Virus record (IMG/VR): IMGVR_UViG_3300027499_000005
Span: 62,001-126,000 of that record
Origin: a virus
Strand: one strand, 5' to 3'
Length of the DNA: 64,000 bases
Shown: piece by piece, positions 1,740 through 22,200 of the stretch
How the letters are laid out: each line of letters begins with the position of its first letter
How positions within the stretch are numbered: position 1 is the first letter of the stretch
Notes under the pieces: model-generated
What the model saw: the letters and a program-made list of their open reading frames with translations, nothing else
Databases searched by the model: none
Told to the model about the DNA's origin: nothing
Program-made: the position numbers and the translations under genes

Positions 1740-2124
1740 TGGTTGGACAATAGCTTTTCTGCTATCACTAGCCATTATGGTTGGGCTTGTCGCTTACATC
1801 CGTTTCTTACTAAAGAACATCAACTTTGTATCAAAAAACATTACTGAACTAAACAATGAAGCAGTAAGTTTCACTTCGCACTTAAAGAGTCTTTATGAAC
1901 TAGAGAGTTTTTATGGCGACGAAACACTTGGTGGTTTGTTAGAGCATGGTATGTATTTTACATCGAAGATCGAGCAGTTCTCAGAAATCATGGATTTGAC
2001 AAACGAGCCGTTGCAAGATCTTCCCGACGAACAAGAGGAAGACGATGAAGAAACAGAGAATGAGCCGCAGTTCAAAGCCAACCAAGAAGTATTTTACGCA
2101 GGATCACGAAGACGCGATTCTTAA
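1723..2124 (+). CDS. Small protein with N-terminal membrane segment and acidic tail
   Basis: 133 residues. Residues about 8-30 form one hydrophobic segment (AFLLSLAIMVGLVAYIRFLL), followed by a mostly helical region and a strongly acidic stretch (DEQEEDDEETENE, about residues 100-112). The topology would be one membrane anchor with the bulk on one side. It overlaps the upstream zinc-ribbon gene by 17 bases and the downstream sigma gene by 80 bases, which indicates translational coupling. I do not recognise a family. Confidence 0.6.
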   Translation: MIVEINGWTIAFLLSLAIMVGLVAYIRFLLKNINFVSKNITELNNEAVSFTSHLKSLYELESFYGDETLGGLLEHGMYFTSKIEQFSEIMDLTNEPLQDLPDEQEEDDEETENEPQFKANQEVFYAGSRRRDS

Positions 2125-2743
2125 GTATGTCGCGACAAACGACAAAAGAATAAGAACGGAACTATACAGTAAGTTGATCGGCCCCGCGTTCGATGAAATG
2201 GTCGATAAGATTGTTTTCACTTACAAGTTCACTACACTTCCAAATATTGATTATTTGCGTGATGAATGCAAGATCTGGCTCATTACCATCCTTGATAAAT
2301 ATGATGTAAGCCAAGGTTCAAAAGCCTTCTCGTATTTTTCAGTCATCACTAAGAACTGGTTTATCCACAAGGTCAAGAGAAAGTCTAAGAAGAATCAGAC
2401 TGAACTTGACATTCAAGAAATGCCAAAAGATTTAGAGCTTCGGTATCTATCAGAGGATAACCCATACGAAAATATTAGAGAGCATAACGAGCTTATTGAT
2501 AATCTTCGTGCCAACATGATTGATTGGATGGAAGAGTCTGATAAGCCGAACGATGAAAAGGTAATAAAGGCTATTCAAGTACTTTTCGAATCAGCCCATG
2601 AAATCGAGATTTTTAATAAGAAAGCTATTTACTTATATCTAAGAGAGATTACCGGTCTTAATACAAAACAGATCGTATCTTGTCTTAAGAGATTGAAAGT
2701 AAACTATCAAGAGTTTCGAAAGGATTGGGACCAAGAACTATGA
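2045..2743 (+). CDS. 55: T4 gp55-like late-transcription sigma factor
   Basis: 232 residues, somewhat longer than T4 gp55 (185). Residues about 72-112 resemble sigma region 2: a helix ending IWLITILDKYD, then KAFSYFSVITKNWFIHKVKR, the pattern seen in gp55 and its marine homologues, with aromatic residues for promoter melting and a basic end. gp55 redirects host RNA polymerase core to late promoters, in T4 together with the sliding clamp and gp33. The ATG at 2045 has GAGGAA just upstream; a second in-frame ATG at 2060 has a weaker site. The next gene starts in an ATGA overlap with this stop. The repeated CTATTTAT elements upstream of structural operons are the natural candidates for its target. 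Family assignment is by pattern, not alignment. Confidence 0.75.
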   Translation: MKKQRMSRSSKPTKKYFTQDHEDAILKYVATNDKRIRTELYSKLIGPAFDEMVDKIVFTYKFTTLPNIDYLRDECKIWLITILDKYDVSQGSKAFSYFSVITKNWFIHKVKRKSKKNQTELDIQEMPKDLELRYLSEDNPYENIREHNELIDNLRANMIDWMEESDKPNDEKVIKAIQVLFESAHEIEIFNKKAIYLYLREITGLNTKQIVSCLKRLKVNYQEFRKDWDQEL

Positions 2744-3033
2744 GTAATGAAGTAGACAAACACATAGCTAGTGCCATTAAGAACATCGAAGATGATAGAG
2801 AAGTTACGAGAGAGCTTCTAGACGATGTAATGCGTCTTTTGGCGAAAGATGAAGAGAACCACAAGTTTGCCGGTTCCGTTGCAGCAAAGTATGTTGAAAC
2901 ACTACAACGTTCGAACGAGCAGCTTGTGAAGATCGCTATGATACTCCAGAAACGCGAAACAGCCGCTGCTGATATTACTGAGTTAGACAAGGACAAGATT
3001 TTCGACCTCTTGCAGAATGACGGAGGAAACTGA
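2740..3033 (+). CDS. Small helical protein next to the late sigma factor; possible gp33-like partner
   Basis: 97 residues if started at the ATG at 2740, which forms an ATGA overlap with the gp55-like stop; an upstream TTG at 2725 is less likely. The sequence is highly charged and should be almost entirely helical. It ends KIFDLLQNDGGN, a short hydrophobic-acidic tail reminiscent of sliding-clamp-binding peptides. T4 gp33 (112 residues) is a late co-activator that bridges polymerase and clamp. The size, translational coupling to the sigma gene and tail make a gp33 analogue conceivable, but I see no sequence match. Otherwise unknown. Confidence 0.55.
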   Translation: MSNEVDKHIASAIKNIEDDREVTRELLDDVMRLLAKDEENHKFAGSVAAKYVETLQRSNEQLVKIAMILQKRETAAADITELDKDKIFDLLQNDGGN

Positions 3034-3035
3034 TA

Positions 3036-4373
3036 TTGGCCCAACCAGTACAACCGTCTGGATCTGCTAAGCTCCCAAACGATGTATTCGTAGTCGCTAA
3101 TCAGAAAGAAAATAACGTTATTCACGATTATGCTGCTCAATCGATCAATCCAATGTCATCGATTAAGCAAGCATATCGTGATTCTTTATTTTCAAGCACA
3201 AAAACAGAAGTAAACGAGAGATTGGCAGAAGTAATGGCCGTAGATATGACAGTGAAGGTGCCGAGTGATTTGAACTATTTCGGCAACTCCTCTATCGCAA
3301 CTGAATACGGTAACAGAGATTGGATTTCTGTTGTTTGTAGAGTAATGGATCTTCATAGTGGCATACCAGATCCAGAACAAATAGTAATCGATGGAACAAC
3401 TACTCAAACTTTTGGTGATATCACAAAGCTGAGATCTAGCATAGGCAAGTTCTACGCCCCAGCAGATGATATCCGAGCAAAGGGAGCTACTAATATTGAA
3501 GTTGGAGATTGGCTTATAGTTGAGTTTCAAGATAAAACAACAATGTCAAATGGCATTATAAAAGACGTTTATTTCAAGAAAGATAAGTCAACTTGGGGTT
3601 CATCTGGCGGAGGTTTTTCTGCTGGTAGCTCATTTGACGGTGCTTATCCTAATCTTCCGGCGGAATCAGCAAATCTTGATAATCCTCCATTAAATCAAGA
3701 GTTTTGGACTCTATTAACCATTTGTTTTGCTGAAGGTGGCGCTAGCGACCAAGGAATGGCAGATGTAGCACAATCAATATACAATCGATATTATATAGCA
3801 AATACCTATAATGGTTATTATTCTAAGAGTATTACTAAGAATGTCGCAGGCGGCAAAAACTACGAGCCAACTTATAAAAACCAAGCTGATTGGCAAAGAA
3901 TAACAGATGAAGCTTCCGCTATAAGAGCATTCAGAGGATATAAACCGTCTTATTCGCAACAGCAGATACAGAATGGACTAAAACGAGCTTTAGCTGCTAT
4001 TAGGGATCCTGTTTTACAAGAAAACGCGGCTCTGCATGTTCAGATTAGACCAGACTTTTTGGCTGGCAAACCCGATCAGGATGTTGGTGGTGTATATCAA
4101 GTGGAGAGGGCATCACCATTATATAAGGATCATAATAACTTCCATATTCGAAAAGACAACCAAGCTATGGGAAAACTTCTTCTGAATGGTTCGCTACGGC
4201 CAGCAGCGTCGATTCCAGAACATATACGTCCTTTTATCGAAGGGAACGAACTACCTACGAGCCAGCCGCTGGAAACGGCACCCACAGAACTTCCAACCTC
4301 ACCAGTATCTCCTCTGCAAAGTCCGGTAGCAACTTCAGAAGCACCAACAGATTTTGGTACATCGGAGATTTAA
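3036..4373 (+). CDS. Spike/hub-like protein with SleB-type cell-wall hydrolase domain
   Basis: 445 residues. Residues about 12-185 form a domain shared with the next gene (KLPNDxFV, YGNR, DITxLR, IGKFYAP, NIEVGDWLxVEFQDKT, GIIKxVY); its short beta pattern would suit an OB-like hub fold. Residues about 220-390 resemble SleB/Hydrolase_2 cell-wall hydrolases: CFAEGGASDQGMADVAQSIYNR, with candidate catalytic Glu233. The C-terminus is Pro/Thr-rich. The likely role is local peptidoglycan cleavage during DNA injection, carried on the virion. The start is a TTG: a strong site GGAGGAAA (3022-3029) is correctly spaced and no ATG lies near. Part of the tail/baseplate region that runs from here to 40 kb. 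The enzymatic call is by motif; the OB-like fold is inference. Confidence 0.65.
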   Translation: MAQPVQPSGSAKLPNDVFVVANQKENNVIHDYAAQSINPMSSIKQAYRDSLFSSTKTEVNERLAEVMAVDMTVKVPSDLNYFGNSSIATEYGNRDWISVVCRVMDLHSGIPDPEQIVIDGTTTQTFGDITKLRSSIGKFYAPADDIRAKGATNIEVGDWLIVEFQDKTTMSNGIIKDVYFKKDKSTWGSSGGGFSAGSSFDGAYPNLPAESANLDNPPLNQEFWTLLTICFAEGGASDQGMADVAQSIYNRYYIANTYNGYYSKSITKNVAGGKNYEPTYKNQADWQRITDEASAIRAFRGYKPSYSQQQIQNGLKRALAAIRDPVLQENAALHVQIRPDFLAGKPDQDVGGVYQVERASPLYKDHNNFHIRKDNQAMGKLLLNGSLRPAASIPEHIRPFIEGNELPTSQPLETAPTELPTSPVSPLQSPVATSEAPTDFGTSEI

Positions 4374-4374
4374 A

Positions 4375-5556
4375 GTGGCATCTCCGAATAATAAGTTACC
4401 AAATGATACGTTTGTTCCGGTAAGTCAGAAAGAGAATATATCGTTACCGAACTATGAAGCCCAAGTTATCGACCCGTTCAGTACTATGAACGAAGCGGTA
4501 AGACATAGATTATTTGGTTCGAAGGGTACGGAAATAAAAGAAAGATTCGTGGAAGTCTTATCGGTGGATAATGACGTAAAGCTTCCCGCGCAGTTAAGCT
4601 ATTTCTCAAGCGCAAATATCTTAACAGAATATGGAAATAGAACTTTTGTTTGTGTTATAGCTAGAATCAACGACGCCGATGCCGGTGTCCCAGATCCAGA
4701 ACTTCTGATAGACGATACAAGCGGTGCTACTTCTTTAGGCTTTAGAGATATCACTAGACTTAGAGGACATATTGGTAAGTTTTATGCTCCAAAGGAAGAC
4801 TTAGACGGTAAATCAGTTGGGAATATAGAAGTTGGAGACTGGCTTGTAGTAGAGTTTCAAGACAAAACCAACTTTCAAAGTGGAATAATAAAAGAAGTAT
4901 ATATCAAGAAAGATGTAAGCACTTATGTTAGAAGAAGTTACGGAGGAAATAGAGCTACTGGGACTTTCGCAAATGGAGGGGTAGTTCCTACCGGTCCATT
5001 AAATACGACAGGTGATATTATCTTTGTTGGTGGTTCTATGAGTCCTTTGGTAGCTTCTAAGATTGGCGCGCCGACAACAGCGTATAGACATCAGTTGTAT
5101 AAGGATGGCAGCGGATTAGCAAGATTAAACGAAGTACTTCCTCGGGCTACACCATCTGAAACGATTAGCAAGGTCATAATAAACGTCGGTGGTAACGATG
5201 GATTTGCAGTTAACCACGATGGAATAAAACTACTACATGAGAACCTTAGAAGAGCATTCCCAGCGGCCCCACAGTTTTATGTTATGAGATCTCCTTTACA
5301 CTTGGGAAACCTAAAGTATAGAACAAATCAAGAGGTACCGAACGGATATTACACCAATAGTGGACAGTTTTCTGGATTTAGCCCGCCTTTTTATATTCTC
5401 TCGCCGGTCATAATACCACCAGAAGGCACCGGTCCTAATGCACACGCTGGTCACGCTAACACATGGTCTTGGCCGGGATCTGATCAGCTTTTGGCTGTGT
5501 GTAAAAAGATACTGGATGGAACGACACTAGCCCCAGAAGACTACTCAATACCATAA
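4375..5556 (+). CDS. Spike/hub-like paralogue with SGNH/GDSL hydrolase domain
   Basis: 393 residues from a GTG at 4375, chosen because the protein then begins like its paralogue (short leader, KLPND) and CGGAGA lies just upstream. Residues about 5-180 are clearly homologous to the preceding gene. After a linker, residues about 212-390 look like an SGNH hydrolase: block I FVGGSMS (candidate Ser221), block III VGGND (G272-D275), and a C-terminal HAGHA (His357/His360) in the place of the DxxH block. Such enzymes often remove O-acetyl or other acyl groups from glycans, so surface polysaccharide or peptidoglycan deacetylation is plausible. The serine motif is GGS rather than the usual GDS. It is immediately followed by a hairpin and a late-promoter-like element. 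Confidence 0.65.
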   Translation: MASPNNKLPNDTFVPVSQKENISLPNYEAQVIDPFSTMNEAVRHRLFGSKGTEIKERFVEVLSVDNDVKLPAQLSYFSSANILTEYGNRTFVCVIARINDADAGVPDPELLIDDTSGATSLGFRDITRLRGHIGKFYAPKEDLDGKSVGNIEVGDWLVVEFQDKTNFQSGIIKEVYIKKDVSTYVRRSYGGNRATGTFANGGVVPTGPLNTTGDIIFVGGSMSPLVASKIGAPTTAYRHQLYKDGSGLARLNEVLPRATPSETISKVIINVGGNDGFAVNHDGIKLLHENLRRAFPAAPQFYVMRSPLHLGNLKYRTNQEVPNGYYTNSGQFSGFSPPFYILSPVIIPPEGTGPNAHAGHANTWSWPGSDQLLAVCKKILDGTTLAPEDYSIP

Positions 5557-5597: not shown

Positions 5598-6623
5598 ATG
5601 TTCGAAAATGATTCATTTAAGTCTGCCCGCGCCGACGACAATCCTTTAGATTACATACCAAAATCTAAAGGCGGTATTCGATTACTCGACGCATCCAGAA
5701 AACTGTCAGATCCCAACTATAGACCAGAACAGAGTCAGTTGTTCATTGGCAATCAGTTGCAATCTGATAGAATATTTAAAGGTGGTCTTAATGGTGACTC
5801 ACTTCCAGAGAATGTGCCAGAACATAATGCTGCTGATTACGAGAAAGTATTAGCTAGTAAGAACAACTCTGCTATCATTATTGGTCGTGATAGACCTAGC
5901 AGCAAATCAAGCGGATATGGTAATATTGGCGCAACCGGAGCCGGTTCGATTTACCTCAAGGCCGGTATGGCATTCCCTCCAAAGAGTCGCGGTAAAGAGC
6001 AGATATATGCTGATAACAACCTTAAGACAGATGCAGCAGGTATCTATATCTCTCAACTAACAGATATCGATAATAACTATGAACTAGCCAGAGGTTCAAT
6101 GAGTCTCCGTGCTAGATCTGGTATTGGTCTGAAAGCTGACGGAATCAGAATCATTGGTCGTGAAAACATAAAGCTTGTAACTGGCCCATTTGTTAAAGAA
6201 CAAAACACTTTGGGAGGTAAGAATATCTCTTATTACGGTATTGATATTATTGCGGGTAATGATGATTCAGAACTGCAACCTATGGCATTGGGGGATAATG
6301 TCGCAGATTGTATTGGAGAGTTGGTTACGATTATAACAAATCTATCTGCCATGATTGATCAGATGATAATCGCTCAAGATGCATTTGAAAAGTCTCTATC
6401 TAGTCACGAACATCCACTATCAGTCACCGCCGATGGAGTACCATTAAAGATACAACAAGATCCAGTCGTAAAAACAGCAAAAGCCACAAAAGCTGCTAGA
6501 ATGACAGAAAAAGTCAATACGAAACTCTTAGAATGGAGATCTGATATCGCTGATTTTAGAAGTAGATATCTATTTGATAAGGGCGAAAAATCCATAAGAA
6601 GTCGCCACAACAGGGTAAACTAA
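5598..6623 (+). CDS. Beta-rich spike/puncturing-device-like structural protein
   Basis: 341 residues with AGAAGG upstream of the ATG. The middle part (about residues 150-200) has short alternating strands such as GSMSLRARSGIGLKADGIRIIGRENIKLVTG-type repeats, the kind of pattern seen in the C-terminal beta-helix of T4 gp5 and in VgrG/gpV spikes (strands ending in a G, N or D turn). A SHEHPLS motif at about residue 272 is of the His-x-His type found near the tips or trimer bases of such spikes. The C-terminus is helical and basic. Placed between the paralogous hub-like genes and the baseplate genes, it is probably a baseplate spike component. No direct family match, so the call is inference from pattern and context. 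Confidence 0.5.
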   Translation: MFENDSFKSARADDNPLDYIPKSKGGIRLLDASRKLSDPNYRPEQSQLFIGNQLQSDRIFKGGLNGDSLPENVPEHNAADYEKVLASKNNSAIIIGRDRPSSKSSGYGNIGATGAGSIYLKAGMAFPPKSRGKEQIYADNNLKTDAAGIYISQLTDIDNNYELARGSMSLRARSGIGLKADGIRIIGRENIKLVTGPFVKEQNTLGGKNISYYGIDIIAGNDDSELQPMALGDNVADCIGELVTIITNLSAMIDQMIIAQDAFEKSLSSHEHPLSVTADGVPLKIQQDPVVKTAKATKAARMTEKVNTKLLEWRSDIADFRSRYLFDKGEKSIRSRHNRVN

Positions 6624-9049
6624 TGGCATACATACCTCCAGACATTTCGCTAATCCAACGTAACACTCCCGAATCTGTTACTTATGTCCCTAATGACGGA
6701 ACTTACAATGACAACTACGATCCCAAAGTGGCACAGCAAGGCGAAAGCCCATTTGGCGTTGAGCTAGTCGTTGGTACTCCAAATAGTAACTGTTATGGAC
6801 TTTATGCCGAACCATTTAACGAATGTGCAAACTTTTTATCGATTCTCCAAAAGGATGAAAGAATCGTTGCTTACTATAATCTTATTGTTGGAAATCTAAC
6901 TGGTCAAAACATTTCGTTGCCGTTTGTAGAAGGTGTTAATCGCTCAATATTCAATGAAGCAGCTAGTCTGAAACCGGTTGGAAATAAGTTTATAGACTCG
7001 ATCATGGGGCATGTTTCGCCTAATCCATATTGGATTGATTTAGAAGGTAACACGATAGGTCCGACTGAAGATGCATTTTTTGACCCATCAGTCGATAGGA
7101 CCGGATGGACTTATTCTGGTGATGCTCCTAGTTCTATTGATTCTTTGATTCAAAATACTTACAAAGAAACTTTAGATATCATTGCACAAGCGATAAATCC
7201 ATATAGAATCTTTGATATAACAGGCCAGATATATGAAGGTGGATGTCGCGAAATCAACGGTCTTCCTTTTACACTACAGCTAAGCAATGGATTCGCTTCT
7301 AGTATTGGATGGGTACTTGCTGTTGCTGAATACGGACCAGATGCTATTCGAAGAAACGAATATCGTGGCGATTACGTCAGATATCAGGGGCAAGATGTAC
7401 CAACTAGCTTGATAGAAGAAGCTACCTTTTACAATATGTGCTTACAAGCAAAAGAGTGTATTAAAGAATATCGTCAAAGCTACCCAGATTCCTACGAAGC
7501 CGATGTGGCTGCTTTAACAGACGATCAACTAGCTAGCTTGCAGGGAGTTCAGGAGTTCGATGCAGTAACTACAAAAGCAACTCTGAATCAAGCACTAGAG
7601 AGAATAAATCTTTGTTATTCATATGTGACTGATCGTAACTACTATAATCAGCCAGTAGTTGGAGACAACGGGAAGTTAAATCAAGAAGTGCTATATAGAA
7701 CTGCTATCTCCGTAGCGGCAATAAGAAATATTATTGTTGTATTACTTGAATCTATAACTGGTGTTTCAACAGCCACAACTGTTGCAGAATACAATGATTA
7801 TGTAAATCAGATACAACAAGATCTACAAGAAGAGTATGAAAGAAACTTAGCTGAAGCAGAAGCTAAAAGGCTAGCAAAAGCCGAAGCTATGGCGGAAAGA
7901 TTGCTTGTTTGTAGAGAAGCAGACGCTGCTGTTGGAGACAAGTGCCGTGATGTACCTAATCCAACAAAAACATTCTTACAAGATTGGACGGTCAGAGACA
8001 GAACAAGTCCTTACTATGCACCTGAACTAAAGAAATATTTTATTGTTTATGATGTGGTAACAAATAACTTTACTGATTTCCAAAAAAAGATAGATACCTA
8101 TAAGTTACAAGCTTTTAATATACTGGATTCAACTTTTAAGTTCAATATTTTTAACTCTAATACTACTCAACAAGCAAAAGAAGAGAAAGCTATGCAAATC
8201 GTAAGGTTAGAGGAGAATGGACTCTATTTTGAGCCAAGATCATTCAAACCTTCGAAGATACTTTTCAGCGTCAGCGAAAATGATTTAAGTTTAGAGCCTA
8301 AGAGCATTGAAGTTATACCACGTTTTACTGAGCAACCACCAAGTTCAGAGTATATTCGCTCTTATAGCATGACAATCAGAGACTTTTTCAGTTCTCTAGA
8401 AGCGTTCGAAAACATATTAAAGAAATATGTGTTTGACCATGCACTTTGGAAAGTCACTTTTGGCAATGAAAATCCTTCAGTAACAAATCTGGCAATATCA
8501 TCAAGTAAGATCTTCAATAAACTCAAGTTTGATATTCTGAAGCAAGACTCTAGAAACTTCCAGAAGTTTAGGCCCATATTCACAAAGCTACTTTCCAAGA
8601 ATGGAATCTCGTTAGCAGATGATATTAGACTTAGCAAAAGCGGACAATATATGCTGGATGATAGGATAATGCTTGTATTTGCATTTGAGAATCCATCAGA
8701 TGTTCAGGCTCCTACGACAGTAGAGGGGACTTCCGTTGTCGCACCACAAGGCAGCAAACAAGTCGATCCAAAACAAATCAATACACAGACCAAACCGCCC
8801 ACAAATAACTCTGGATCAGGTTTGGCAGATGGGTTGACAGCCGGTACAAAGATTAAAATGTACAGAGTCCAAGTAATGAACGGCTCTAGACCTCCATTAG
8901 ATTTAATCTGGAAAAATCTAGATGGTTCTGGCTCAAATCTAGAAGGTTTAAACTCCCAAGATGTATTTATGCAAGAAGTGGTCATGAACTACTTGATGAA
9001 CTTGGATGTTCTACTAGCACTTCTAAGACCAAACAAAAATGATAGGTAA
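6623..9049 (+). CDS. Large virion structural protein, baseplate region, unknown family
   Basis: 808 residues; the ATG overlaps the previous stop as TAATG. No recognised domain. Residues about 390-430 form an Ala/Glu/Lys-rich heptad-like helix (a short coiled coil) followed by a few cysteines. Residues about 690-750 are a Pro/Thr/Gln/Gly-rich linker, and the last 60 residues are a compact helical segment. Its place among spike and baseplate genes, and translational coupling to the spike-like gene, suggest a baseplate or tail component. Function not assignable from sequence. Confidence 0.6.
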   Translation: MAYIPPDISLIQRNTPESVTYVPNDGTYNDNYDPKVAQQGESPFGVELVVGTPNSNCYGLYAEPFNECANFLSILQKDERIVAYYNLIVGNLTGQNISLPFVEGVNRSIFNEAASLKPVGNKFIDSIMGHVSPNPYWIDLEGNTIGPTEDAFFDPSVDRTGWTYSGDAPSSIDSLIQNTYKETLDIIAQAINPYRIFDITGQIYEGGCREINGLPFTLQLSNGFASSIGWVLAVAEYGPDAIRRNEYRGDYVRYQGQDVPTSLIEEATFYNMCLQAKECIKEYRQSYPDSYEADVAALTDDQLASLQGVQEFDAVTTKATLNQALERINLCYSYVTDRNYYNQPVVGDNGKLNQEVLYRTAISVAAIRNIIVVLLESITGVSTATTVAEYNDYVNQIQQDLQEEYERNLAEAEAKRLAKAEAMAERLLVCREADAAVGDKCRDVPNPTKTFLQDWTVRDRTSPYYAPELKKYFIVYDVVTNNFTDFQKKIDTYKLQAFNILDSTFKFNIFNSNTTQQAKEEKAMQIVRLEENGLYFEPRSFKPSKILFSVSENDLSLEPKSIEVIPRFTEQPPSSEYIRSYSMTIRDFFSSLEAFENILKKYVFDHALWKVTFGNENPSVTNLAISSSKIFNKLKFDILKQDSRNFQKFRPIFTKLLSKNGISLADDIRLSKSGQYMLDDRIMLVFAFENPSDVQAPTTVEGTSVVAPQGSKQVDPKQINTQTKPPTNNSGSGLADGLTAGTKIKMYRVQVMNGSRPPLDLIWKNLDGSGSNLEGLNSQDVFMQEVVMNYLMNLDVLLALLRPNKNDR

Positions 9050-9076: not shown

Positions 9077-12000
9077 ATGGCTACTTCTAGAAAAGGTACA
9101 AACTTCAAAGAGTTTGCAGCTACTCTGCGTTATCCCCCATTAAGGTTTGAAGACGGAACCACTACAGATCCGCTACAAACTCCAAGAGCGCAGTTTCTAA
9201 AAGATTTTGCAACCAATGTCCTGAATGATATACTCCGTGATATCAAGGAAGACGGGCTTGAATATTATGCAAATCAATACAACGAACAGCCATTTAAGAA
9301 CTATGCTCAAAAGGTAAAAGAAGACGAGTTATTAAAAAACCCCATTAATAAGGCTGCTAAAGCGGCTTTGGTAGATCAGCAACAACTACATGCTGGTGAT
9401 CCATACGCATTAGTACTAAATGATGTAATCGATAGTTTCACAGATAACGTCACATTCGATACAAGTGGAGTTTTTGCCAAGGGCGATACTGGCGCACTAG
9501 CTAGAAAACAACTTTTAGATGCTATGGGCGTGAACTCCCTTAAGTTATTAGGGTTTATATCACTCACTTCGTTAGCTAGATCTATACCAATCGAAACCAT
9601 AACACAGTTTAACGTACAAGAATATTTGAAGTATTTAGATCCTGTATTCTTGTTAAATAAGCTTATTGCTGGCATAAAAGATAAAAGCATCTCTGAGGCT
9701 ATAAACGATTTTAAGTTAGTCGGAAGATTCGTTAATGGTGTTCTAACTTCTAGTCAGTTTGAGCCAAAGCTACAACAAGCTTATCTGGATTATCTCTCGA
9801 CTAGAGAGGATGTTCCTGCATCCTTGCAAAACATCGCCAAGTTTGATGAAATAATAGCAATCGTAAATCCAGACAATATCGATGAACAATCTGACGAAGA
9901 GGCTTTTAAGGCTGTATCAACTGCCTCTATCGATTTCTTGCAAAATGGAAAACTCGGTATTGATCTTAAGATTGTATCTAGAGATCTGAACGGGTCAGTA
10001 TTGGGGGAGATATCACTTAACGATCTCTCGGAAGATATGACCGGTTTGATTACTGGCGCACAAGACGACCTACAAAAAATCTTCGATGGTCTTGAGAATA
10101 GATGCGATCTGCCAGATGCGAATATGTTTAACAAATATCGTAATCTAGGTTTGGCAATAAAACAGTTCTTTCAAGGTTTCAAGCCAATCCGTCTTAAGAA
10201 GACAAAGCTAGGTAAGATCAAGATAGCTGACAGGCACGAACTTATTGAATCGGCATTAGCTAGCGTATTGATTTCCAGTTTCTACGTTGCGACTACAACT
10301 CTGTTTAAGCTTGTATTGTCATACCTCCAGAAACTTGTACCGGATCTATCATGTGCCGAAATCGCAGCTATGATTGTCCCCGAAGAAGAACTAGGCCCAG
10401 CAACTCAGAATAGAGCAGTAAGCTCCGATGCAATGGCCAGAAAGATAGCTGCTAGTATAAAAGCTAATAATCCAAATAATACTTCAAACATAAACATAGC
10501 CGATATCTCTGCGTTGTTAGCAGAGATAGCCTCTTCTATTGGTATGTTCAACGGCATGGATATCAACTCATTAAACGAGTTTTTGTCTTTGGCTACAAGT
10601 GTATTAACAGAGAGGGAATACTGTGAACTCCTCGGCGGTAATCCAACGCAAGATACGATCCTAATAATCCAGAACATAATCGATTTCAGATATCCACAGG
10701 CAGGTATCAGCAAAGATCCCCAAGATATAACAGCATTTTTTAAGTCATTATCAAGTCTGTCTAACGCAGGGTGTGATCAAATAAGTAGAACTGTAGATAT
10801 GCCGGTAAATACACTACTATGTGCAACACCGGAATACTACAGGGTCTATAACGATTTGAGAATCGCTTTATTAAAAGAGAAGGGCCTTGCAGATTCGGAA
10901 GTAGAGTTACAAATCAATAAGATTTGTGATCTCAACTCTTTACAAGCACAACAGTTTTTGGATCTTTTGAATAACGACGATCCACTTGATAGCATGATTC
11001 CGTTGATTCAAACTGGTAATCCGAACTGCGGTATTGAATCTTCGATTGAGCCTATTAACGAACTAGTCAAAACTGAGTTGGTACGTTCGTACACAAACAT
11101 TTTTGAGCCTTTGAAGGAATCTCTTGATTTATCGATGGTCGGTGACAGAGGATTCATAACCAAAGTACTTAGTGGCAAAAATGGTCTACCATATCCTCTT
11201 TTCTTGCAGATCGCGCAAGGTTTAACAAATGCTCTAACAGCAGAATCATACGTTGCTAAAGTCACTAATACATTTGATCCCACTAGCGATACCTCAATCG
11301 TGCAAAGTCCTACCTTAAACACTTTTGAGCCTTCTCTAGTAGCTAGCTGGATGAGACTTAACCAAGAAGAGTTCTGTAGCCTTGACAGGGCTAATCGACT
11401 AGCTATCACACCCTTCACAACCAACCCCCAGCTATTTGATAATCTAGTCGATCCATTCAATGCTCGTATCGGGTTTACTGATGAAGATAAGGAAAGACTA
11501 AGATACTTTGCCTCCCTAACTAACGAAGATCTACAGATGCAATCGATGACTTTTGAACAACTTCTAACATATGAAGACTTGTTCAAGAGACTTGGAAACA
11601 TTTTCTTTTCCGTCAGAGGTCTAAGTTTTACTGGTATATATGACCTAAGCCAGAGCAGTATTGAAAACCTAAGCGTCGATGGTATAAGACAAGCCAACCT
11701 TGAGGCTGGAGCTTTCGTGGAAGTTTTGGTTCCAAACAAGAATCTAATAAACACGATATTATTGAGTATGGTACATCCTGTTTATGGACTAAAGAATGCT
11801 ATTACTGCTATTTTTAATCCAAGAACAATGTATATTCCTGCAACTCAAGAGCAACTTTCTAATAAAAATCCTCCTGCTCTTCCCGGTGTGAACAAGAAGA
11901 TCTCTTCAAAGCAGCCATTGTACAGAGTCAAGAGTTACAACTTCTTTATCATGCCACTCACACCAGCAGGAGCAGAGGACGGTTTAATAAGGACTAAGAT

Positions 12001-15000
12001 TATTGACTATTATCCTTCTTCAATCCGTGGCTTGGATAATCTAGGACCGAACAGTTTTAATGAAAATCCTGTCATCGGATCCTTCCAAACAGTAGAAAAC
12101 CTACAGATAATCAATAACAATAAGTTTGTATTTGATCAGTTAAACAAACGGATTGAGCTAAAAGATATCGTTAAGAAATCAAGTGATTACTTTATCAATG
12201 TGAAGGATCCAAGTATTGCTAATCCGTCAATAATGGATATTCTTCCTCCGAATCAGTTAGAAGGTGCTTCCAAACAATCACTGGTATTTGCTGATTTGGT
12301 TTTGAAAGCTATACAAGATAACGTTGGTATTAACTTCGAGGAAATGCCAGACGGTAAGAAGTACGCCGAATATATCCAAAAAGAACTTTACAACTATGTG
12401 TACAATAGCTTTATGGATGGTATGAACAAGATTCCAGCCTTGAACGGAAAAAACCTTAACTTTGGTGTCACGGATCAAAGGATTAATCCACTAAACAGTT
12501 TCCACACGAATACTATTACTGGATATCCAGATCCGGTAAATCCAGAAGATTTCGGTGGTACTGAAACCGATCCTGCTTATTATATCTACAACAAACTTTC
12601 GGATGATTGGAAGAATCTTTATAATCTATATGTCCGTGATAGGAACGAAGAAGCAAGACCAGCTAGAACTCCCATTCCAGATTTTGCTGGGTTTTCAGAG
12701 CAAGCGGCAGATCTATATCTTAGGCTCAGTGAAGAAACTAGAGAAGCCAATGATTATAGCAATCAAGCTCCGTTTGACTTGATTGTTAGTAAAGCCTCCC
12801 TTGTAACGATGGACAGTTTAGTCGATATGATGATTAAAGTGTTTTCATTTGAGCATTATTATAAAGGTTTTGCTTTCCTAAACACAGTCGAAATAACTGA
12901 TAACGTTTTTGATAATGTATTCTTTACCTTCTTGGCGAATAGGTTTAAGGACTATGCCGTTCAAGCTGGTCCTACAGTTGGCAGAGACAGAAGAAAAACA
13001 TCAAAGTTCTACCATATGCTTATGGAGATGTATGTTTCCTTGATGTTCAAGAAGAGAGAAGCTAGGATTTTGTCTGTTACCCCAAGAGAAGATGAACTCT
13101 TGAGATTGATCGGTAGAAAGACGAATATCTGGCGTTTTGGTATACCAAAGACCGGTCTAACAGATAAAGAAAGTCAATATCTAGAGGCTTCCTCTATAAT
13201 CTCACAGTACGAACAACCCAGTTATCCGCTAGGAACAATCAGTAATGCTGTGGCATCTTCCCAGAACTCTCTAGGACCAATGAACAAGATCTTTGCTGAA
13301 GCCAAGAAGCAAAGACAAGAACAGATTAGGATTCGCAATAACTATTGGAATCTGATAATGGAAGATTGCGAGCCACTATTCGAAGAACTTCTTAGTATAA
13401 GATTACGTTCTGAGCTAAATACTATTTCGAATCAGCTAGCAATCCTAAACCCAGATTTGATCAAAGAAAATAGCATTCTAAATATGCCCATAAACGGCGG
13501 CCCTATTGTACAGAATGGCGAGAAGATCCCAGATCCAGACGGTACAGCTTATATGAGGAATATTTACAGTCATCACCCAGCGATGCTATACTCCGCTGGA
13601 AACGTGTTGATTTCTGATTATGCCTATAGAGCGTTCTATGGAACTCTTGAAGATAATAACGACCGTAACTTTAATGGATTCTTGTTCAATAAGTTTTACA
13701 CTATGCAGCCACATCCTTCAGGATCTGTCGTGCTTAAGAGTGAACCAAAAGAGCCTGTGTATAGCTTCTCTGCTAACTATGATGCTGATTTAGCTGATGA
13801 CATAGGTAGGGAGTTTAGAAGTACGAATCCATTCGGTGGTTCACAAACGATGGATATGTTTAGATACAGTCCCGACTTTTTGACACCAAGCGTCTTGAAC
13901 TACATTGAGTTGAATAAACGAGACATTGTAACTAATGAGTTCTTACTCAAAAATGAATACTCAAAAGCAGGATACGATTCAGATTGGAATAGTTTCTTCC
14001 TTTTCCAAGATGAAGCAACAAGAATGCAAGAAATCAATGATATCACTAATAATATCGGTAATCAGAGAATCAATGATTATCTTGAGAGTATTGATCCGTA
14101 CAATCAACAAAATATTAACTTTGATCGTGTTCTAAGAACAACTGAAAATCCTTACCATAGGATTAAGCGATTCAAAGTATTCAAAACAGATGGTACAACA
14201 CTTAAGAAGCTTGGTACCGATACCTACATAATAGGTGGTATGTCGGCTTCAAACATGCCAATAGTTTTGAGTCAAGTTGGCGCTCCCATCGTAGTTGAAC
14301 AATATATAAATCTAGATTTTATGCCAAGAGATGAAATACTTGTTTCTCCTATGGCTGGAGCTTATATCGATAGAGATACGGGTCAAGATGTTTTCCTAAA
14401 CTTGCATTCTGCTTTGGAAAGTGCGTTGTACAACACCTCTGGCAGATTCACGGGTGGATTCTTGGGAGACTCACTTAGCCCAACAGCAGAAGGTATTTTT
14501 AGGGGTCCATCAAGTTTGACTAACTTGATTTACTGGCTAGGAGCTAGTGGATTCTTGAATGCATCCGTAGCTTTCGCCGGTCAGCAGCAGAGCGATTATT
14601 TTGACTACCTAGATTTTAAACTGAAAGATTTCTTTAGACCCGGTACATTTAACGCTGGATTAAGATTAATGTTGCTACAACCAGATTCTAATCTAACCAT
14701 CGATAAAGGATTGCATTCGTATTTTGAAGATGATTTGATTCCCGTCAAAGAAGGAGATCTAGATCCTATTACCAATATAAGAGATAGAATCAAAAATACT
14801 AAATCATTTAGTAAAGAGACAGGATATTCTATTCCTATCTTCAAAGCAGAAGAGTCAGTCGAATGGACCCTCAGAGACTTGAAAGCCATTTACGATGCGT
14901 ATATCTCTTCAAACAATGGAGATGGATTTGGCGATATTAATGTTACACCAACGAAATGGATTGATCATAGTCCTTTGACAAGAATGATGAACATTAGATT

Positions 15001-15529
15001 GTCTAGAGCTATCTCTTGTAGCGAAGAATATAAGAAGATGTTTGATTTCTGTGTACCATTGCGATACATGGCATCGCTAACAGCTATCTACACGACCAAA
15101 GCTTTTACCAACTCAATAGGCTCAGCCGTAGATTGGGGAGGAATCAAGAGGGTAGACGATAAAGTTTTCAAGAAAGACGAAACCAATGTTTTAGCTCCGT
15201 TCTATGAATCAGTAAGAAAGGTATTCTATCATTCTTACAACTCATTTGATCCATCATACAATGGCGAGAATGATGACAACACTAGTCAACAAACTGAAGA
15301 AGAAAAACTCATTAGAACCTCAAGACCACTACTTGATGCAGATAGGGGAGAATCTATTGTAAAGATTTCCGAAATCCAAAACGATATCCTACATGCCAAT
15401 AAAGTCGATCCGCTTTTCAGAGAGGGGTTGGGTGATCTTCGCTCGATTATAGGCACAGGGTACGAACGCTCTATCATCCCAGATCCAACAAATGCGTGTG
15501 GTTCGGCTAATGATGAGGATATCTGTTGA
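9077..15529 (+). CDS. Giant virion structural protein (2150 residues), probably baseplate
   Basis: An uninterrupted 2150-residue frame started at an ATG with AAGGA 6 bases upstream. It is mixed alpha/beta with many Asn- and Leu-rich segments and no domain I recognise. It lacks the long regular coiled coil expected of a tape-measure protein. It is not secreted: there is no signal peptide. It is directly followed by gp25- and gp6-like wedge genes, so a large baseplate or tail-associated scaffold role is the best guess. The size is far above any T4 baseplate protein (T4 gp7 is about 1030 residues); it may replace one or several T4 wedge proteins such as gp7 or gp10. That replacement is inference from location only. 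Confidence 0.6.
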   Translation: MATSRKGTNFKEFAATLRYPPLRFEDGTTTDPLQTPRAQFLKDFATNVLNDILRDIKEDGLEYYANQYNEQPFKNYAQKVKEDELLKNPINKAAKAALVDQQQLHAGDPYALVLNDVIDSFTDNVTFDTSGVFAKGDTGALARKQLLDAMGVNSLKLLGFISLTSLARSIPIETITQFNVQEYLKYLDPVFLLNKLIAGIKDKSISEAINDFKLVGRFVNGVLTSSQFEPKLQQAYLDYLSTREDVPASLQNIAKFDEIIAIVNPDNIDEQSDEEAFKAVSTASIDFLQNGKLGIDLKIVSRDLNGSVLGEISLNDLSEDMTGLITGAQDDLQKIFDGLENRCDLPDANMFNKYRNLGLAIKQFFQGFKPIRLKKTKLGKIKIADRHELIESALASVLISSFYVATTTLFKLVLSYLQKLVPDLSCAEIAAMIVPEEELGPATQNRAVSSDAMARKIAASIKANNPNNTSNINIADISALLAEIASSIGMFNGMDINSLNEFLSLATSVLTEREYCELLGGNPTQDTILIIQNIIDFRYPQAGISKDPQDITAFFKSLSSLSNAGCDQISRTVDMPVNTLLCATPEYYRVYNDLRIALLKEKGLADSEVELQINKICDLNSLQAQQFLDLLNNDDPLDSMIPLIQTGNPNCGIESSIEPINELVKTELVRSYTNIFEPLKESLDLSMVGDRGFITKVLSGKNGLPYPLFLQIAQGLTNALTAESYVAKVTNTFDPTSDTSIVQSPTLNTFEPSLVASWMRLNQEEFCSLDRANRLAITPFTTNPQLFDNLVDPFNARIGFTDEDKERLRYFASLTNEDLQMQSMTFEQLLTYEDLFKRLGNIFFSVRGLSFTGIYDLSQSSIENLSVDGIRQANLEAGAFVEVLVPNKNLINTILLSMVHPVYGLKNAITAIFNPRTMYIPATQEQLSNKNPPALPGVNKKISSKQPLYRVKSYNFFIMPLTPAGAEDGLIRTKIIDYYPSSIRGLDNLGPNSFNENPVIGSFQTVENLQIINNNKFVFDQLNKRIELKDIVKKSSDYFINVKDPSIANPSIMDILPPNQLEGASKQSLVFADLVLKAIQDNVGINFEEMPDGKKYAEYIQKELYNYVYNSFMDGMNKIPALNGKNLNFGVTDQRINPLNSFHTNTITGYPDPVNPEDFGGTETDPAYYIYNKLSDDWKNLYNLYVRDRNEEARPARTPIPDFAGFSEQAADLYLRLSEETREANDYSNQAPFDLIVSKASLVTMDSLVDMMIKVFSFEHYYKGFAFLNTVEITDNVFDNVFFTFLANRFKDYAVQAGPTVGRDRRKTSKFYHMLMEMYVSLMFKKREARILSVTPREDELLRLIGRKTNIWRFGIPKTGLTDKESQYLEASSIISQYEQPSYPLGTISNAVASSQNSLGPMNKIFAEAKKQRQEQIRIRNNYWNLIMEDCEPLFEELLSIRLRSELNTISNQLAILNPDLIKENSILNMPINGGPIVQNGEKIPDPDGTAYMRNIYSHHPAMLYSAGNVLISDYAYRAFYGTLEDNNDRNFNGFLFNKFYTMQPHPSGSVVLKSEPKEPVYSFSANYDADLADDIGREFRSTNPFGGSQTMDMFRYSPDFLTPSVLNYIELNKRDIVTNEFLLKNEYSKAGYDSDWNSFFLFQDEATRMQEINDITNNIGNQRINDYLESIDPYNQQNINFDRVLRTTENPYHRIKRFKVFKTDGTTLKKLGTDTYIIGGMSASNMPIVLSQVGAPIVVEQYINLDFMPRDEILVSPMAGAYIDRDTGQDVFLNLHSALESALYNTSGRFTGGFLGDSLSPTAEGIFRGPSSLTNLIYWLGASGFLNASVAFAGQQQSDYFDYLDFKLKDFFRPGTFNAGLRLMLLQPDSNLTIDKGLHSYFEDDLIPVKEGDLDPITNIRDRIKNTKSFSKETGYSIPIFKAEESVEWTLRDLKAIYDAYISSNNGDGFGDINVTPTKWIDHSPLTRMMNIRLSRAISCSEEYKKMFDFCVPLRYMASLTAIYTTKAFTNSIGSAVDWGGIKRVDDKVFKKDETNVLAPFYESVRKVFYHSYNSFDPSYNGENDDNTSQQTEEEKLIRTSRPLLDADRGESIVKISEIQNDILHANKVDPLFREGLGDLRSIIGTGYERSIIPDPTNACGSANDEDIC

Positions 15530-15560: not shown

Positions 15561-15935
15561 ATGGCTACTGGATATTCTGTAAAGCTTCCGCTTCAATTAA
15601 GCCCATCAGACGGACCATATGCTTTAAACAAGAATCTAGCATCTGTTGTAAAGCAAAATGTCAAAATGATTATCTTTACATCTCCCGGCGAAAGAATCAT
15701 GGATTCTAACTTCGGCGTAGGGATACGAAACTATCTCTTTGAGCCACTTACAGAGATAACCAAGATCAATATTAGAGATAGAATCATTAAACAGTTAAAT
15801 ACGTATTTGCCATTCGTAACTATCAAAAGCCTTGGTGTATATTCCAATGACGAAGAACCGAACACCATACAGATTAAGATGGAATATACTTTTCCATCAA
15901 GCAATGCACAAATATTAGATCTTGTGATTAGATAG
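15561..15935 (+). CDS. 25: gp25-like baseplate wedge protein
   Basis: 124 residues, matching T4 gp25 in size (132). It shows the GPW/gp25 family hallmarks: an N-terminal strand region, NLASVVKQNVKMIIFTSPGERIMDSNFGVGIRNYLFEP (TxPGERxxxxxFGxGxxxxLFEP core, about residues 26-63), then paired strands ending in the C-terminal VIR. In contractile tails this protein is the conserved wedge element that nucleates sheath assembly. The start has GAGGGT upstream. It is followed by the gp6-like gene, the same pairing found across contractile injection systems. Confidence 0.92.
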   Translation: MATGYSVKLPLQLSPSDGPYALNKNLASVVKQNVKMIIFTSPGERIMDSNFGVGIRNYLFEPLTEITKINIRDRIIKQLNTYLPFVTIKSLGVYSNDEEPNTIQIKMEYTFPSSNAQILDLVIR

Positions 15936-15975: not shown

Positions 15976-17784
15976 ATGTCAAATATGAAGAAGCCACTTA
16001 TTAGATATACCTCGCGTGACTTTGAAAAGATTAAAGCTGATCTTATCGAGTTTGCAAAGAGGTACTACCCAGATTCTTATAAAGATTTCAACGAAGCTAG
16101 CTTTGGCTCGCTTATGATTGACAGCGTTTCTTATATTGGTGACATTCTATCGTTTTATATCGATTATCAAGCAAACGAATCATTTCTACCAACAGCCGTA
16201 GAATACGGAAACGTAAGGAAGTTAGCCGAACAAAACGGATTTAAGTTTAAGGGTCCATCGACTTCTAGCGGTATTGCACAGTTCTTCGTTCTAGTGCCAG
16301 CATCATCCGTTTCTCCAACTTCAGGACCGGATCCATCGCTTATCCCTGTTCTAAAGAAGAACTCGGTCTTCGGCGCACAAAGTAATGCGGTATTTACTTT
16401 GCTTGATGATGTCAGGTTCGACTCAGTTGATACCGACATCGTTCCAGCAAGGATCAATCCAGCTACAGGACAACCCACATTCTATGCTCTTAGAAAGAAT
16501 GGTGTGGTTATTTCTGGCAGGTTTAGAAGCGAGGTAATCTCAGTAGCAGATTATGAGCGTTTCAAACGTGTAATGCTAACCGGTAGAAACATTAACGAGA
16601 TCAGTCAAGTCATGGATGCCGAAGGGCACGAATACTATGAGGTGGATTATCTAACACAGAATGTTATCTACAAGGAAATAGAGAATAAGGGCGGGGATAA
16701 CGTTGTTGTTCCATCTATTTTGCGTCCTTTTGCTGTTCCAAGAAGATTTACTTTTGAAGTAATGCAAGATGGAACTTCTTATTTGCAGTTTGGATTCGGT
16801 GGCGAATCGGAACTAATAAACACTGGTTACGCAGAACCAAATACAATCCTTTTAAATCGCTATGGCCGTAGCTATGAAACAGAGCAGAGCTTCGACCCAA
16901 ATAAGCTACTGCAATCTGATAAGCTAGGCGTTTCACCATCAAACACAACTTTGACTGTGACTTATCGTTATAATGACAGCACGACAGTCAACGTACCAAC
17001 TGGTAAGCTTACAAGAGCCATAACGCCCATACTAGAGTTCAAAGATGAGTATCTTTTAAACACCGATACAGTCAGAACAATCCGCGCTAGTCTTGAAATA
17101 AACAATGATGAACCAATCGTTGGGCAAGCTTCCTTACCAAGCGCCGACGAGATCAAGGTCAGATCCGCTTCGTTTTTTGCATCGCAGAACAGGGCAGTAA
17201 CACAGCAAGATATGGAATCTATTTGCTATGCGATGCCTTCTAAGTTTGGTGCCATAGCTAGAGCCTCAGCCTATAAGGACAGTAACTCTTTTAAGAGAAA
17301 CATCAATCTTTATGTACTTACCGAAGACTTCAACGGTAAGCTAGCACGACCTTCCGGGCTTTTGAAGGATAATCTTAAGAACTGGATTAACCGTTACAAG
17401 ATGATTCATGATACTGTTGATATCTTGGATGGTCTTGTCGTAAACTTCGGGGTTGATTTCAGTATTCTAGTTGATAAAGCTTACGATAAAGAAATGGTAC
17501 TATCTGATGCCCGCGCTAAGTTGGCAGAACATTTCTCCAAACCCGGCTATTTCGGTCAAATGGTATCCATCTCGGAGATCTATTCGGTCCTCAACAAACA
17601 AGTTCGTGGTGTTATCGACGCAAAAAGGGTAAGATTAATGCCAAGAATCGATGGAGTTTATTCTTCTAATACTTTTGATTTTACCGAGGCTTTATCTGTT
17701 GATGGTACATACCTAATCGTTCCAAAGAACGTCTGTATGGAAATGAAGTTTACAGATCTAGACATAGCAGGAGTGGCTGAATAA
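15976..17784 (+). CDS. 6: gp6-like baseplate wedge protein
   Basis: 602 residues, close to T4 gp6 (660). The N-terminus has the typical wedge-protein opening: YTSRDFEKIKADLIEFAKRYYPDSYKDF, then SLMIDSVSYIGDILSFYIDYQANESFLPTA and VRKLAEQNG (about residues 10-85), shared by T4 gp6 and the related gpJ-like family. Later parts contain the characteristic SVVPSxx-like beta core and a second conserved segment, RAVTQQDMESICYAMPSKFGAIARA (about residues 405-430). The protein forms the inner baseplate ring that joins wedges around the hub. It ends in a TAATG overlap with the next gene. Confidence 0.88.
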   Translation: MSNMKKPLIRYTSRDFEKIKADLIEFAKRYYPDSYKDFNEASFGSLMIDSVSYIGDILSFYIDYQANESFLPTAVEYGNVRKLAEQNGFKFKGPSTSSGIAQFFVLVPASSVSPTSGPDPSLIPVLKKNSVFGAQSNAVFTLLDDVRFDSVDTDIVPARINPATGQPTFYALRKNGVVISGRFRSEVISVADYERFKRVMLTGRNINEISQVMDAEGHEYYEVDYLTQNVIYKEIENKGGDNVVVPSILRPFAVPRRFTFEVMQDGTSYLQFGFGGESELINTGYAEPNTILLNRYGRSYETEQSFDPNKLLQSDKLGVSPSNTTLTVTYRYNDSTTVNVPTGKLTRAITPILEFKDEYLLNTDTVRTIRASLEINNDEPIVGQASLPSADEIKVRSASFFASQNRAVTQQDMESICYAMPSKFGAIARASAYKDSNSFKRNINLYVLTEDFNGKLARPSGLLKDNLKNWINRYKMIHDTVDILDGLVVNFGVDFSILVDKAYDKEMVLSDARAKLAEHFSKPGYFGQMVSISEIYSVLNKQVRGVIDAKRVRLMPRIDGVYSSNTFDFTEALSVDGTYLIVPKNVCMEMKFTDLDIAGVAE

Positions 17785-19246: not shown

Positions 19247-22200
19247 ATGAGCATAAAAGATCTATTTGGACTACAAAAACAAGGTACGTTTCCGGTAGCT
19301 GACAACACAAACAGCGACGTTTATCTTTATGCAGAGTCTAAAGATAATATCGCAGCTAAGTTCGAAGCTATTGAGAAGTTCATACCACTGGTGGACTTCT
19401 CCGATCCAAAGAACTTCGTTAAGTTCGGATCAGCAGAAAACTACTATTCTGCTTCTGTAACGAATATTGTAAATGAGTTTCCTTATGACGGTTCAAGGAA
19501 AGAGCTAAATCTTTATCTATCGAACTGCACATATCTAGATCTATATCTGTTGAACCACAAGTATCCAAGAACAAATGGATACATCAACTTTTCTTCCAAC
19601 AACTACACATTCTCTGGTGCTAAAGTTGGGGGATACGGTAACCCAACTAGCAAAGAGTACATCTATTTCTTTGGTGGACCTCATACAGCCTCGCAGGGTA
19701 TGATCGGAAGTCCGCTTGCTAATACCTTTGATGACGCAAATAAGTTTGAACTAGATGTCTATACTACCGCTTCACAAGCGGCAGACGGAAGAACCGGTAC
19801 AAGAACTACAAATCTATTGATGAATCCGTCCTATGGCATGGCGGTAGAGTTCTGGTTAAAGAAAGACGGGTTCGCAACTTCCTCGACAGAAAAAGAAATC
19901 GTATTCGATCTTTGGAACTCAGCAGTCTCGTCTAGTACTGATTATGGTCGTCTTCTCATTGGTATTACTGGATCTGCTGACGGACTATCTACTTTCTTCT
20001 TCGAAATCTCTTCGGGTTCGACAACCGTATCCCAAGCCCTTTCGATTAGTGGCTTTACAACATCTTCATTGGCAGATGGAACATGGCGTCATTATGCCTT
20101 TACCTTCCAGAACACTGGCAGCAATCTAGAGGCTAAAGCATATATTAACGGTAACAGGGAATACTCTAACGTTTTTGCCAGTAAAGCTATGGGTATTGTT
20201 GACGGTGCTTTGTCTGCTAATATCGGCGCTCTCCGTACATCACCTTCTGGTTCTACTTTCAACGGAATCAACATGCTTGGTTACGGCAAGCTATCTGGTT
20301 CACTTGACGAGTTTAGGTACTGGAAGTCTGTCAGAAACGAAAAAGAAATCAACTTCTATTATAAATACCAAGTTGCTGGTGGTACAAACACTGATGTTTC
20401 AAATACAGAACTCGGCGTCTACTTCAAGTTCAACGAAGGTATCACAGGCGTATCCGCTGTAGACTCGACTGTACTCGATTACTCTGGCCGTATCACAAAT
20501 GGTACATGGTATGGATATCCCGGCTCAGCAGCCAGAAATACCGGTTCTGCTATGGTATTGGCAGGAGCTACCGCAACAGAATACCAAGATCCGATTATTA
20601 GAGCAGACCATCCAAGTATTACAAGCCTATATGGCGAACTAATCGCTTCCGGTAGTGAATACGATATTAAGAATAATGCATCGCTATATTACTCGATGCC
20701 ATCGTGGATTATCGAGGAAGATAGGCCAGAAGATGGTTCAAATGGCGGCGATCTTTTTAACCTAACCCAGATCATGTCATACCAGCTAGATGAACTATAC
20801 GCTGGTATCTCAAGCTTGAGTAAACTCAAAAACAAAGAATACTTAAGCTCTAGTTTTGAAAAACCATTACCATTTGCAGAATATCAAGTAGCAAATCAAG
20901 GTTTTGTTACTCCTTTAATCTTCGAAAACTCATCTCTATACGAAAAGATTCTAAATGTAGATAATACAAATCGTTTTGAAGAAGAACTAGAGGATATCAG
21001 GAACTCTATATATCAAAATGTGTACAACAATCTAGTATACATTTATAAGTCTAAAGGAACTGATAAATCATTTAGAAACCTTATTAGAACATATGGTATT
21101 GATGATAACGTAGTAAATGTATCTGTTTATCCAAACAATACAAGATATATTTATGACAATAGGTATGACTTTACGGCAGCAGGTAAGAAGTTTATTAACT
21201 TCAATAAGCCAGAAAACTTTGCTGCTACAATCTACCATAATGCTGGAGCTAACTCGTTTGTTTCAGGCAACTTAGTAGATTACACTCTTAAAGAGCTAGG
21301 CTTTACTACCGAAGCGGAAGTAATATTCGCTAAGAAGCCACTGTTTAGTGAGGCTGGATACTTCTACACCGATTTCGTTACTTCCTCGGTTGCAGGATTC
21401 CATCTACCCAACACTTCTAGCACATCTGATCTAACCTTCCAAAGCGCCGACACGACATTGCGTATATACGCTGTTCGAACTGGCGTTGAATCAAAAGATG
21501 TTTACTTCCTTCTTACGGGTGCAGTTAACGGTACGACCGATGTTAAAGTAACGAGTAGTGTATTCTATTCAGTATACGACAACAAGAAGTGGAACTTTGG
21601 CGTAACATTAGCACCAGACAAAGCTTTACACTATGAAGCAATCACTGGAAGCGCAAACACAACCTATACTCTTGCATTTTATGGCGTGAATAAAGAACTA
21701 GACATAGTGCTGGATTCTTTCTACCTAACAGCTTCTTTGTCCAATACAGCAGGCAAAATACTTGCTTCATCTCCAAAGAGATACTACGCAGGCGCTAGGA
21801 ATACAAACTTTAGCGGAAGCGTGATCGACAGAAGTGATATCAGACTCGGTTCACTACGTCATTGGGTTTTGCCACTTCAAACAAGCTCCATCGATTTCCA
21901 CGCACAAAATCCATTTAGTTTTGGCACCCAGAATCCATCTAGAAATGCGTTCTTGAATCAGAACGCAGTAACCGGTACATATATTCCAGAGATTGAGACT
22001 CTTGCCCTACATTGGGATTTCAGTTCTGTAACTTCATCCAACACAAGCGGTGAGTTCCAAGTATTTGATATTACATCTGGTTCTTATGATAAAAACTTGT
22101 TTGGTGCCGTATCTAAGGTAACAAATGTTATTTACAACGCTACTGCACACAACTTCCCAGCTTCTGATTCTGATGTAGTCACCAAAGAGTTCATCAGTTT

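Follow-up and report, generated by a model that had tools for sequence, protein, structure and literature searches.

Paralogous proteins with a predicted gp5-type OB domain and exchangeable envelope-active enzymes at a probable tail-hub locus of T4-like phages

The window analysed here comprises 64,000 nucleotides (positions 62,001 to 126,000) of the IMG/VR record IMGVR_UViG_3300027499_000005, in which portal, prohead protease, major head protein, sheath, gp25, and gp6 were matched by PHROGs; the 147-kb record is a deep-branching T4-like myovirus. Its closest named relatives, with approximately 30% identity in gp6, are Microcystis phage Mel-JY01, the Flavobacterium “immuto” phages, and the huge phage LR756508, in which a similar order was found, namely a gp55-like protein, a protein of ~110 aa, a gp5-like protein and, further along, gp25 and gp6. 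The window genes from the gp55-like sigma factor to the presumed needle protein, and those for gp25 and gp6, lie on the plus strand. A gp55-like late sigma factor (2045..2743; phrog_234, E 6e-4; alignment A2, more than 500 relatives) is the conserved upstream neighbour and is followed by a protein of ~100 aa that is conserved in position (2725..3033) and by two hub paralogues. The first, P1 (3036..4373, 445 aa), is composed of an OB-type domain, a SleB-like domain, and a Pro-rich tail, and the second, P2 (4375..5556), of an OB domain and an SGNH domain. Downstream are a separate beta-helix-like protein, presumed to be the needle (5598..6623; alignment A5, about 550 IMG/VR relatives), and the baseplate wedge proteins gp25 (15561..15935; phrog_261, E 1e-24) and gp6 (15976..17784; phrog_219, E 8e-18). 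The two ORFs 3' of the needle-like gene, of 808 aa (6623-9049) and 2150 aa (9077-15529), have no Pfam match; most relatives possess a single ORF of ~2200-2500 aa at this position, and locus L013 resembles the window in having a 785-aa ORF first.

The preliminary description of two adjacent ORFs with homologous N-termini and different C-termini was borne out. By BLASTP, residues 12-203 of P1 and the first part of P2 are 51% identical over about 190-196 residues (E 8e-65, one comparison), and no alignment was returned between the C-termini. P1 begins at TTG 3036 with GGAGG ahead; for P2, GTG 4375 (GGAG at 4364-4367) appears more likely as the start than TTG 4354, giving a length of ~393 aa. Within the 147-kb record the shared domain was not detected a third time. 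A tblastn search of 50,697 phage records yielded three distant matches for P1 and none for P2, and single-protein scans of IMG/VR with P1 or P2 found a near-identical contig alone.

The pair is no chance feature, because the same gene slot was recovered from 189 distinct loci. Using the gp55 alignment A2, 80 IMG/VR loci were taken from 541 confirmed ones, with up to 10 kb downstream of each, and further loci were contributed by three IMG/VR scans with the beta-helix-like protein; near-duplicates were removed, and each of the 189 loci retained has both gp55 and the beta-helix-like gene, with the slot flanked by them. A single protein fills the slot in 162 loci, whereas 20 loci have two proteins there and seven have three. 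An HMM of the OB domain, expanded from the family of the window proteins, matched 214 of the 223 slot proteins, once per chain, with two OB paralogues in 14 loci, three in seven, and four or more in none; six “two-gene” loci carry just one OB gene. OB-only proteins of 190-227 aa occupy the slot in seven loci, the middle one of the three copies in L148 is a 247-aa protein that carries no enzyme, and the largest fusions reach 1422 aa. Pfam scans of the hub C-termini revealed at least 10 unrelated enzyme families at one position, including VanY/M15, Amidase_2, M23, Muramidase, Phage_lysozyme2, SLT, GH19, and GDSL. The hub is thus best read as a modular gp5-type carrier with an exchangeable enzyme, its OB gene being present in one to three copies.

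The OB domain of P1 is 52% identical to that of L013 copy 1 while their enzymes are unrelated by BLAST, which points to an enzyme swap between close phages. The order of the P1/P2 duplication relative to the split from L013 was not resolved by an OB-domain tree, and the only hint, drawn from pairwise OB identities (52 vs 43% and 48 vs 42%), is that the duplication may have come first. The possibility of three fused OB domains in the hub proteins of 1200-1400 aa was ruled out, there being one OB domain per chain. Two giant hubs, L078:10952-14509 and L079:10895-14872, combine one OB domain with an alpha/beta-hydrolase (esterase-like, by eye), VanY, and Amidase_2.

The shared N-terminal domain (residues 1-186 of P1; 3036..3593) was modelled with AlphaFold2 from alignment A8, consisting of 88 aligned N-termini with P1 as the first row, and the model attained a mean pLDDT of 73, with core strands at about 90. 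Its Foldseek matches in the PDB were largely OB folds (IF1, aIF1A, and PriB), along with a baseplate chain of bacteriophage P1, all of them weak (E 0.01-0.1). Three matches in a viral library passed 1e-3; the named matches weaker than this included a number of “Baseplate hub + tail lysozyme” proteins from cyanophages, a “Baseplate central spike protein”, and a “Gp5, N-terminal OB-fold” protein. Profile alignment by hhalign with T4 gp5 and relatives gave no significant match, and the gp5 assignment hence rests on fold and context. With moderate confidence, the domain is predicted to be a gp5-type OB fold, in support of the earlier proposal that one attachment domain is common to two different envelope-active enzymes.

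The same domain bears on whether P1 and P2 are virion parts at all or could be soluble enzymes, for lysis or an accessory role, that have a binding domain in common. Slot enzymes devoid of a detectable OB domain, in L296, L273, and L303, would suit such enzymes, but the gp5-like OB domain, the fixed place between gp55 and the needle/gp25/gp6 block, and the members that consist of the OB domain alone, with no enzyme attached, make this alternative highly improbable, and P1 and P2 are presumed to be parts of the virion.

T4 gp5 consists of an OB domain, a lysozyme, and a beta-helix, is cleaved between the last two, and is trimeric on gp27 (PMC3004832). The window hub is similar in its N-terminal OB-type domain followed by a peptidoglycan-active enzyme (clear in most relatives, sub-threshold in P1), its beta-helix-like needle partner, and its place in the baseplate cluster. 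Unlike gp5, however, the P1 and P2 chains stop after the enzyme, and the beta-helix-like part is a separate gene from the start, as if cleavage had become a gene split; its product (5598-6623) retains the conserved core DAARIYISQ...IKADxVRIIGREGIK (alignment A5), from which a needle fold is suggested. Since the beta-helix is absent from both chains, P1 and P2 are described as working like gp5 and not as a complete gp5. The window group also departs from T4 in having one to three paralogues and in exchanging its at least 10 enzyme families, an SGNH esterase included. Specialised (evolved) VgrG proteins of type VI secretion systems share the gp5-like spike, the varied C-terminal enzymes, and the several paralogues per genome, whereas the present system is a phage hub with mostly peptidoglycan enzymes and with OB and needle in different chains. 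The features that are new relative to gp5 and VgrG hubs are the pre-split needle, the one to three OB paralogues, and the exchangeable cargo.

The C-terminal domain of P1 (residues ~221-390; 3696..4205) had been read as a SleB-like hydrolase, a reading that stands on cyanophage relatives and a motif but falls below profile thresholds. Pfam Hydrolase_2 (PF07486) scored 13.6 bits against a gathering cut-off of 27 bits, P1 was left unmatched in a PF07486 search of its own genome, and its SleB identity was not confirmed by a PDB profile search or by hhalign to a clear Hydrolase_2 protein. In its favour, P1 is 36% and 31% identical to hub-region proteins of two cyanophages, of which one bears the annotation “cell wall hydrolase SleB”, and its motif E233...ADVAQSIYNR conforms to the pattern E...Q..ADVAQ..YNR that is invariant across P1 and these two relatives. 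We take the motif to be the SleB-family signature, E...(Q/G)..AVA..NR-like, with the catalytic Glu followed by (A)VA..NR, and Glu233 (3732-3734) to be the candidate catalytic residue. All profile matches being sub-threshold, the domain is likely, not proven, to be SleB-like. SleB is a lytic transglycosylase, and P1 would presumably act as one.

The two relatives belong to the Synechococcus phages ACG-2014g and S-SCSM2R, T4-like marine cyanophages whose hub regions contain a SleB-like ORF, an “endolysin”, a “tail lysozyme”, and gp5. They thus resemble the window in having several wall-hydrolase genes beside gp5, with a SleB-like domain 31-36% identical to that of P1, and differ in the larger size of their hub-region proteins, the likeness covering the SleB-like domain and the neighbourhood.

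That P2 ends in an SGNH hydrolase (domain 5002..5538) was upheld. Its C-terminal 130 residues are 35% identical to L013 copy 2, which in turn matches Pfam Lipase_GDSL at 33 bits (cut-off 23.6 bits). Across 11 hub SGNH domains (alignment A10), S14, G38, G65-G66-N67, and H150 are invariant, and the Ser, the Asn of GGND, and the His of P2 are encoded at 5035-5037, 5194-5196, and 5443-5445, respectively. The Asp three residues before the His is missing in P2 (PNAH) and in L013 copy 2 (AGSH), whereas most other members have DGVH or similar. As judged from its sequence, P2 is an SGNH hydrolase with Ser, Gly, Asn, and His kept and the usual Asp missing; the catalytic triad whose absence was to count against the enzyme is hence incomplete in P2, with Ser and His in place and Asp gone. 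The missing Asp is essential in gonococcal Ape (PMC6174289), and the SGNH subunit may be catalytically dead; we presume that P2 is active despite this loss. A single-sequence AlphaFold2 model of P2 was unusable (pLDDT 37). The profile of P2 and its relatives found DUF459 (8gr2) and PatB (8tlb) as best PDB matches and, lower, Ape1 (4k3u), all of the SGNH family but, unlike P2, cellular periplasmic enzymes; further matches included thioesterase I / lysophospholipase L1, PAF acetylhydrolase, and an LPS-modification acyltransferase.

The comparison across loci revealed where SGNH domains occur. They are present in 17/59 multi-enzyme loci and in 0/123 single-enzyme loci (p 8e-10), and among loci fetched after the pattern had been noticed in 3/25 and 0/50, respectively (p 0.03), both p-values being optimistic because the loci are phylogenetically related. 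“Multi-enzyme” here denotes multiple genes or a fusion, a single protein being counted as such by a 640-aa limit of our choosing. A possible bias lies in the SGNH HMM, whose seed sequences came from multi-copy loci and included P2; an independent Pfam scan of single-copy hubs identified three GDSL members, and GDSL was detected in L105, L114, and L168, each a long fusion. Clustering of the SGNH domains at a threshold of 30% identity gave eight groups, that is, at least eight divergent lineages, and for all eight to be multi-enzyme against a background of 59/182 the probability is about 1e-4 by our own arithmetic.

The partners of the esterase are similarly skewed. In the window the partner is P1 (SleB-like, sub-threshold). 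Muramidase is the partner in L027 and is fused in one chain with GDSL in L105 and with GDSL and VanY in L114, while Phage_lysozyme2 accompanies SGNH in L067, L098, and L148. A further partner class, presumably GH104-like as read from a GKYQ motif, is found in L060, L067, L081, L111, L126, and L145. By eye, the partner in L013 is lytic transglycosylase-like, and those of the three later loci are a GH24 lysozyme (L273), a SleB-like protein (L296), and an SLT-like protein (L301). In all SGNH loci but L168 a partner was recognised, by profile, motif, or eye, and it includes a probable glycan-strand cleaver, as a paralogue or fused. Such a partner is present in 11-13 of the 14 first-set SGNH loci against at most 24 of 100 non-SGNH loci (upper-bound counts), with p 9e-7 for 13/14 and p 1e-4 for the 11 profile-supported cases alone.

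O-acetylation at C6 of MurNAc blocks lysozymes and precludes lytic transglycosylases, leaves peptidases and glucosaminidases unaffected, and is overcome by Ape esterases (PMC6174289); the lytic transglycosylase LtgA was also reported to form a complex with Ape1 and to stimulate it (PMC7083599). An esterase that travels with glycan cleavers as a paralogue or a fusion, and never alone, is what this chemistry predicts. We consider it probable, with some reservation, that the locus encodes a modular gp5-type hub whose SGNH enzyme removes acyl groups, probably the MurNAc O-acetyl that blocks lysozymes and lytic transglycosylases. The OB adaptor would dock on the hub at the gp27 position, above the separately encoded needle, and tail contraction would carry the hub into the periplasm, where the P2 esterase would strip acyl groups, the likeliest being the O-acetyl at C6 of MurNAc, and the SleB-like enzyme of P1 would then cut the exposed glycan strand. 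The initial suggestion of “peptidoglycan cleavage plus glycan deacylation” fits the comparison in the absence of solitary SGNH enzymes, the glycan-cleaving partners, and the profile matches to peptidoglycan O-acetyl enzymes.

SGNH enzymes act on many esters, so peptidoglycan O-acetyl is not a specific prediction, and the enzyme could instead attack outer-membrane lipid or LPS acyl chains, O-antigen, capsule, or another acylated surface glycan. The pairing with glycan cleavers would then arise because an acylated outer layer has to be crossed before peptidoglycan is reached, in keeping with the matches to lysophospholipase, PAF acetylhydrolase, and the LPS-modification acyltransferase. The composition of the L078/L079 fusions, where an apparent alpha/beta-hydrolase stands beside VanY and Amidase_2, likewise indicates that esterase-type activities may accompany non-glycan cleavers too. 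A bias towards glycan cleavers is, however, not expected if the outer layer is the sole target, and among the top matches of the profile the best characterised ones are DUF459 and PatB, Ape1 being matched as well; we hold a different ester to be unlikely, though it deserves serious consideration.

Whether the two enzymes act together is a separate matter. T4 gp5 is a homotrimer (PMC3004832), and Serratia VgrG1 and VgrG2 did not form heterotrimers (PMC4924876), precedents for P1 and P2 forming separate homotrimeric hubs as alternative tips, be it a mixed population or a host-range choice. Yet the one-chain fusions of L105 and L114 make the combination obligate, and SGNH is never the sole enzyme of a locus, although SGNH-only virions would be common if tips alternated; we accordingly give separate tips little credence. 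Specialised VgrG heterotrimers, as proposed for the T6SS, are described in a review (PMC10433429), and an asymmetric hetero-trimeric hub is conceivable, with different OB paralogues at different positions of one gp5 trimer such that one puncture brings deacetylase and glycan cleaver to a single site on the peptidoglycan; three-copy phages would then carry as many as three enzymes, or a filler subunit lacking an enzyme as in L148. The ceiling of three paralogues in 189 loci is weakly consistent with this arrangement, which we put forward tentatively and regard as rather doubtful. If true, it would mean that host peptidoglycan O-acetylation is overcome as an entry barrier.

No phage tail hub pairing an SGNH enzyme with a peptidoglycan hydrolase came up in searches of a collection of open-access papers. 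The data suggest that the T4-type puncturing hub serves as an enzyme-exchange platform across a phage group that is widespread, and that a multi-enzyme tip can be reached in three ways, namely paralogue number, fusion, and domain swapping. The loci amount to a natural catalogue both of enzyme modules that act on the envelope and of combinations matched by evolution, and they pose the testable question of whether a tail-tip peptidoglycan deacetylase unblocks the phage's own entry lysozyme.

Several minor observations accompany these results. The SGNH domains of L060, L081, and L111 are at least 60% identical, whereas the needle-like protein of L060 is less than 50% identical to the other two, which suggests transfer of the enzyme module between phage lineages. 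A hub paralogue in L023 (4863-6602) has a C-terminal part that weakly matches tyrosine / dual-specificity phosphatases, an unexpected tail-hub cargo. In the window, a 2971-aa ORF (19247-28162) lies in the baseplate/tail region, and a sugar-nucleotide epimerase-like fragment and a UDP-glucose dehydrogenase-like ORF, both recognised by eye, lie just 5' of the baseplate region (86-1271). Lastly, a single 1038-aa ORF (42247-45363) matches SbcD-like (N-terminal part) and SbcC-like PHROGs and is apparently a fusion of gp47/gp46-type nuclease subunits.
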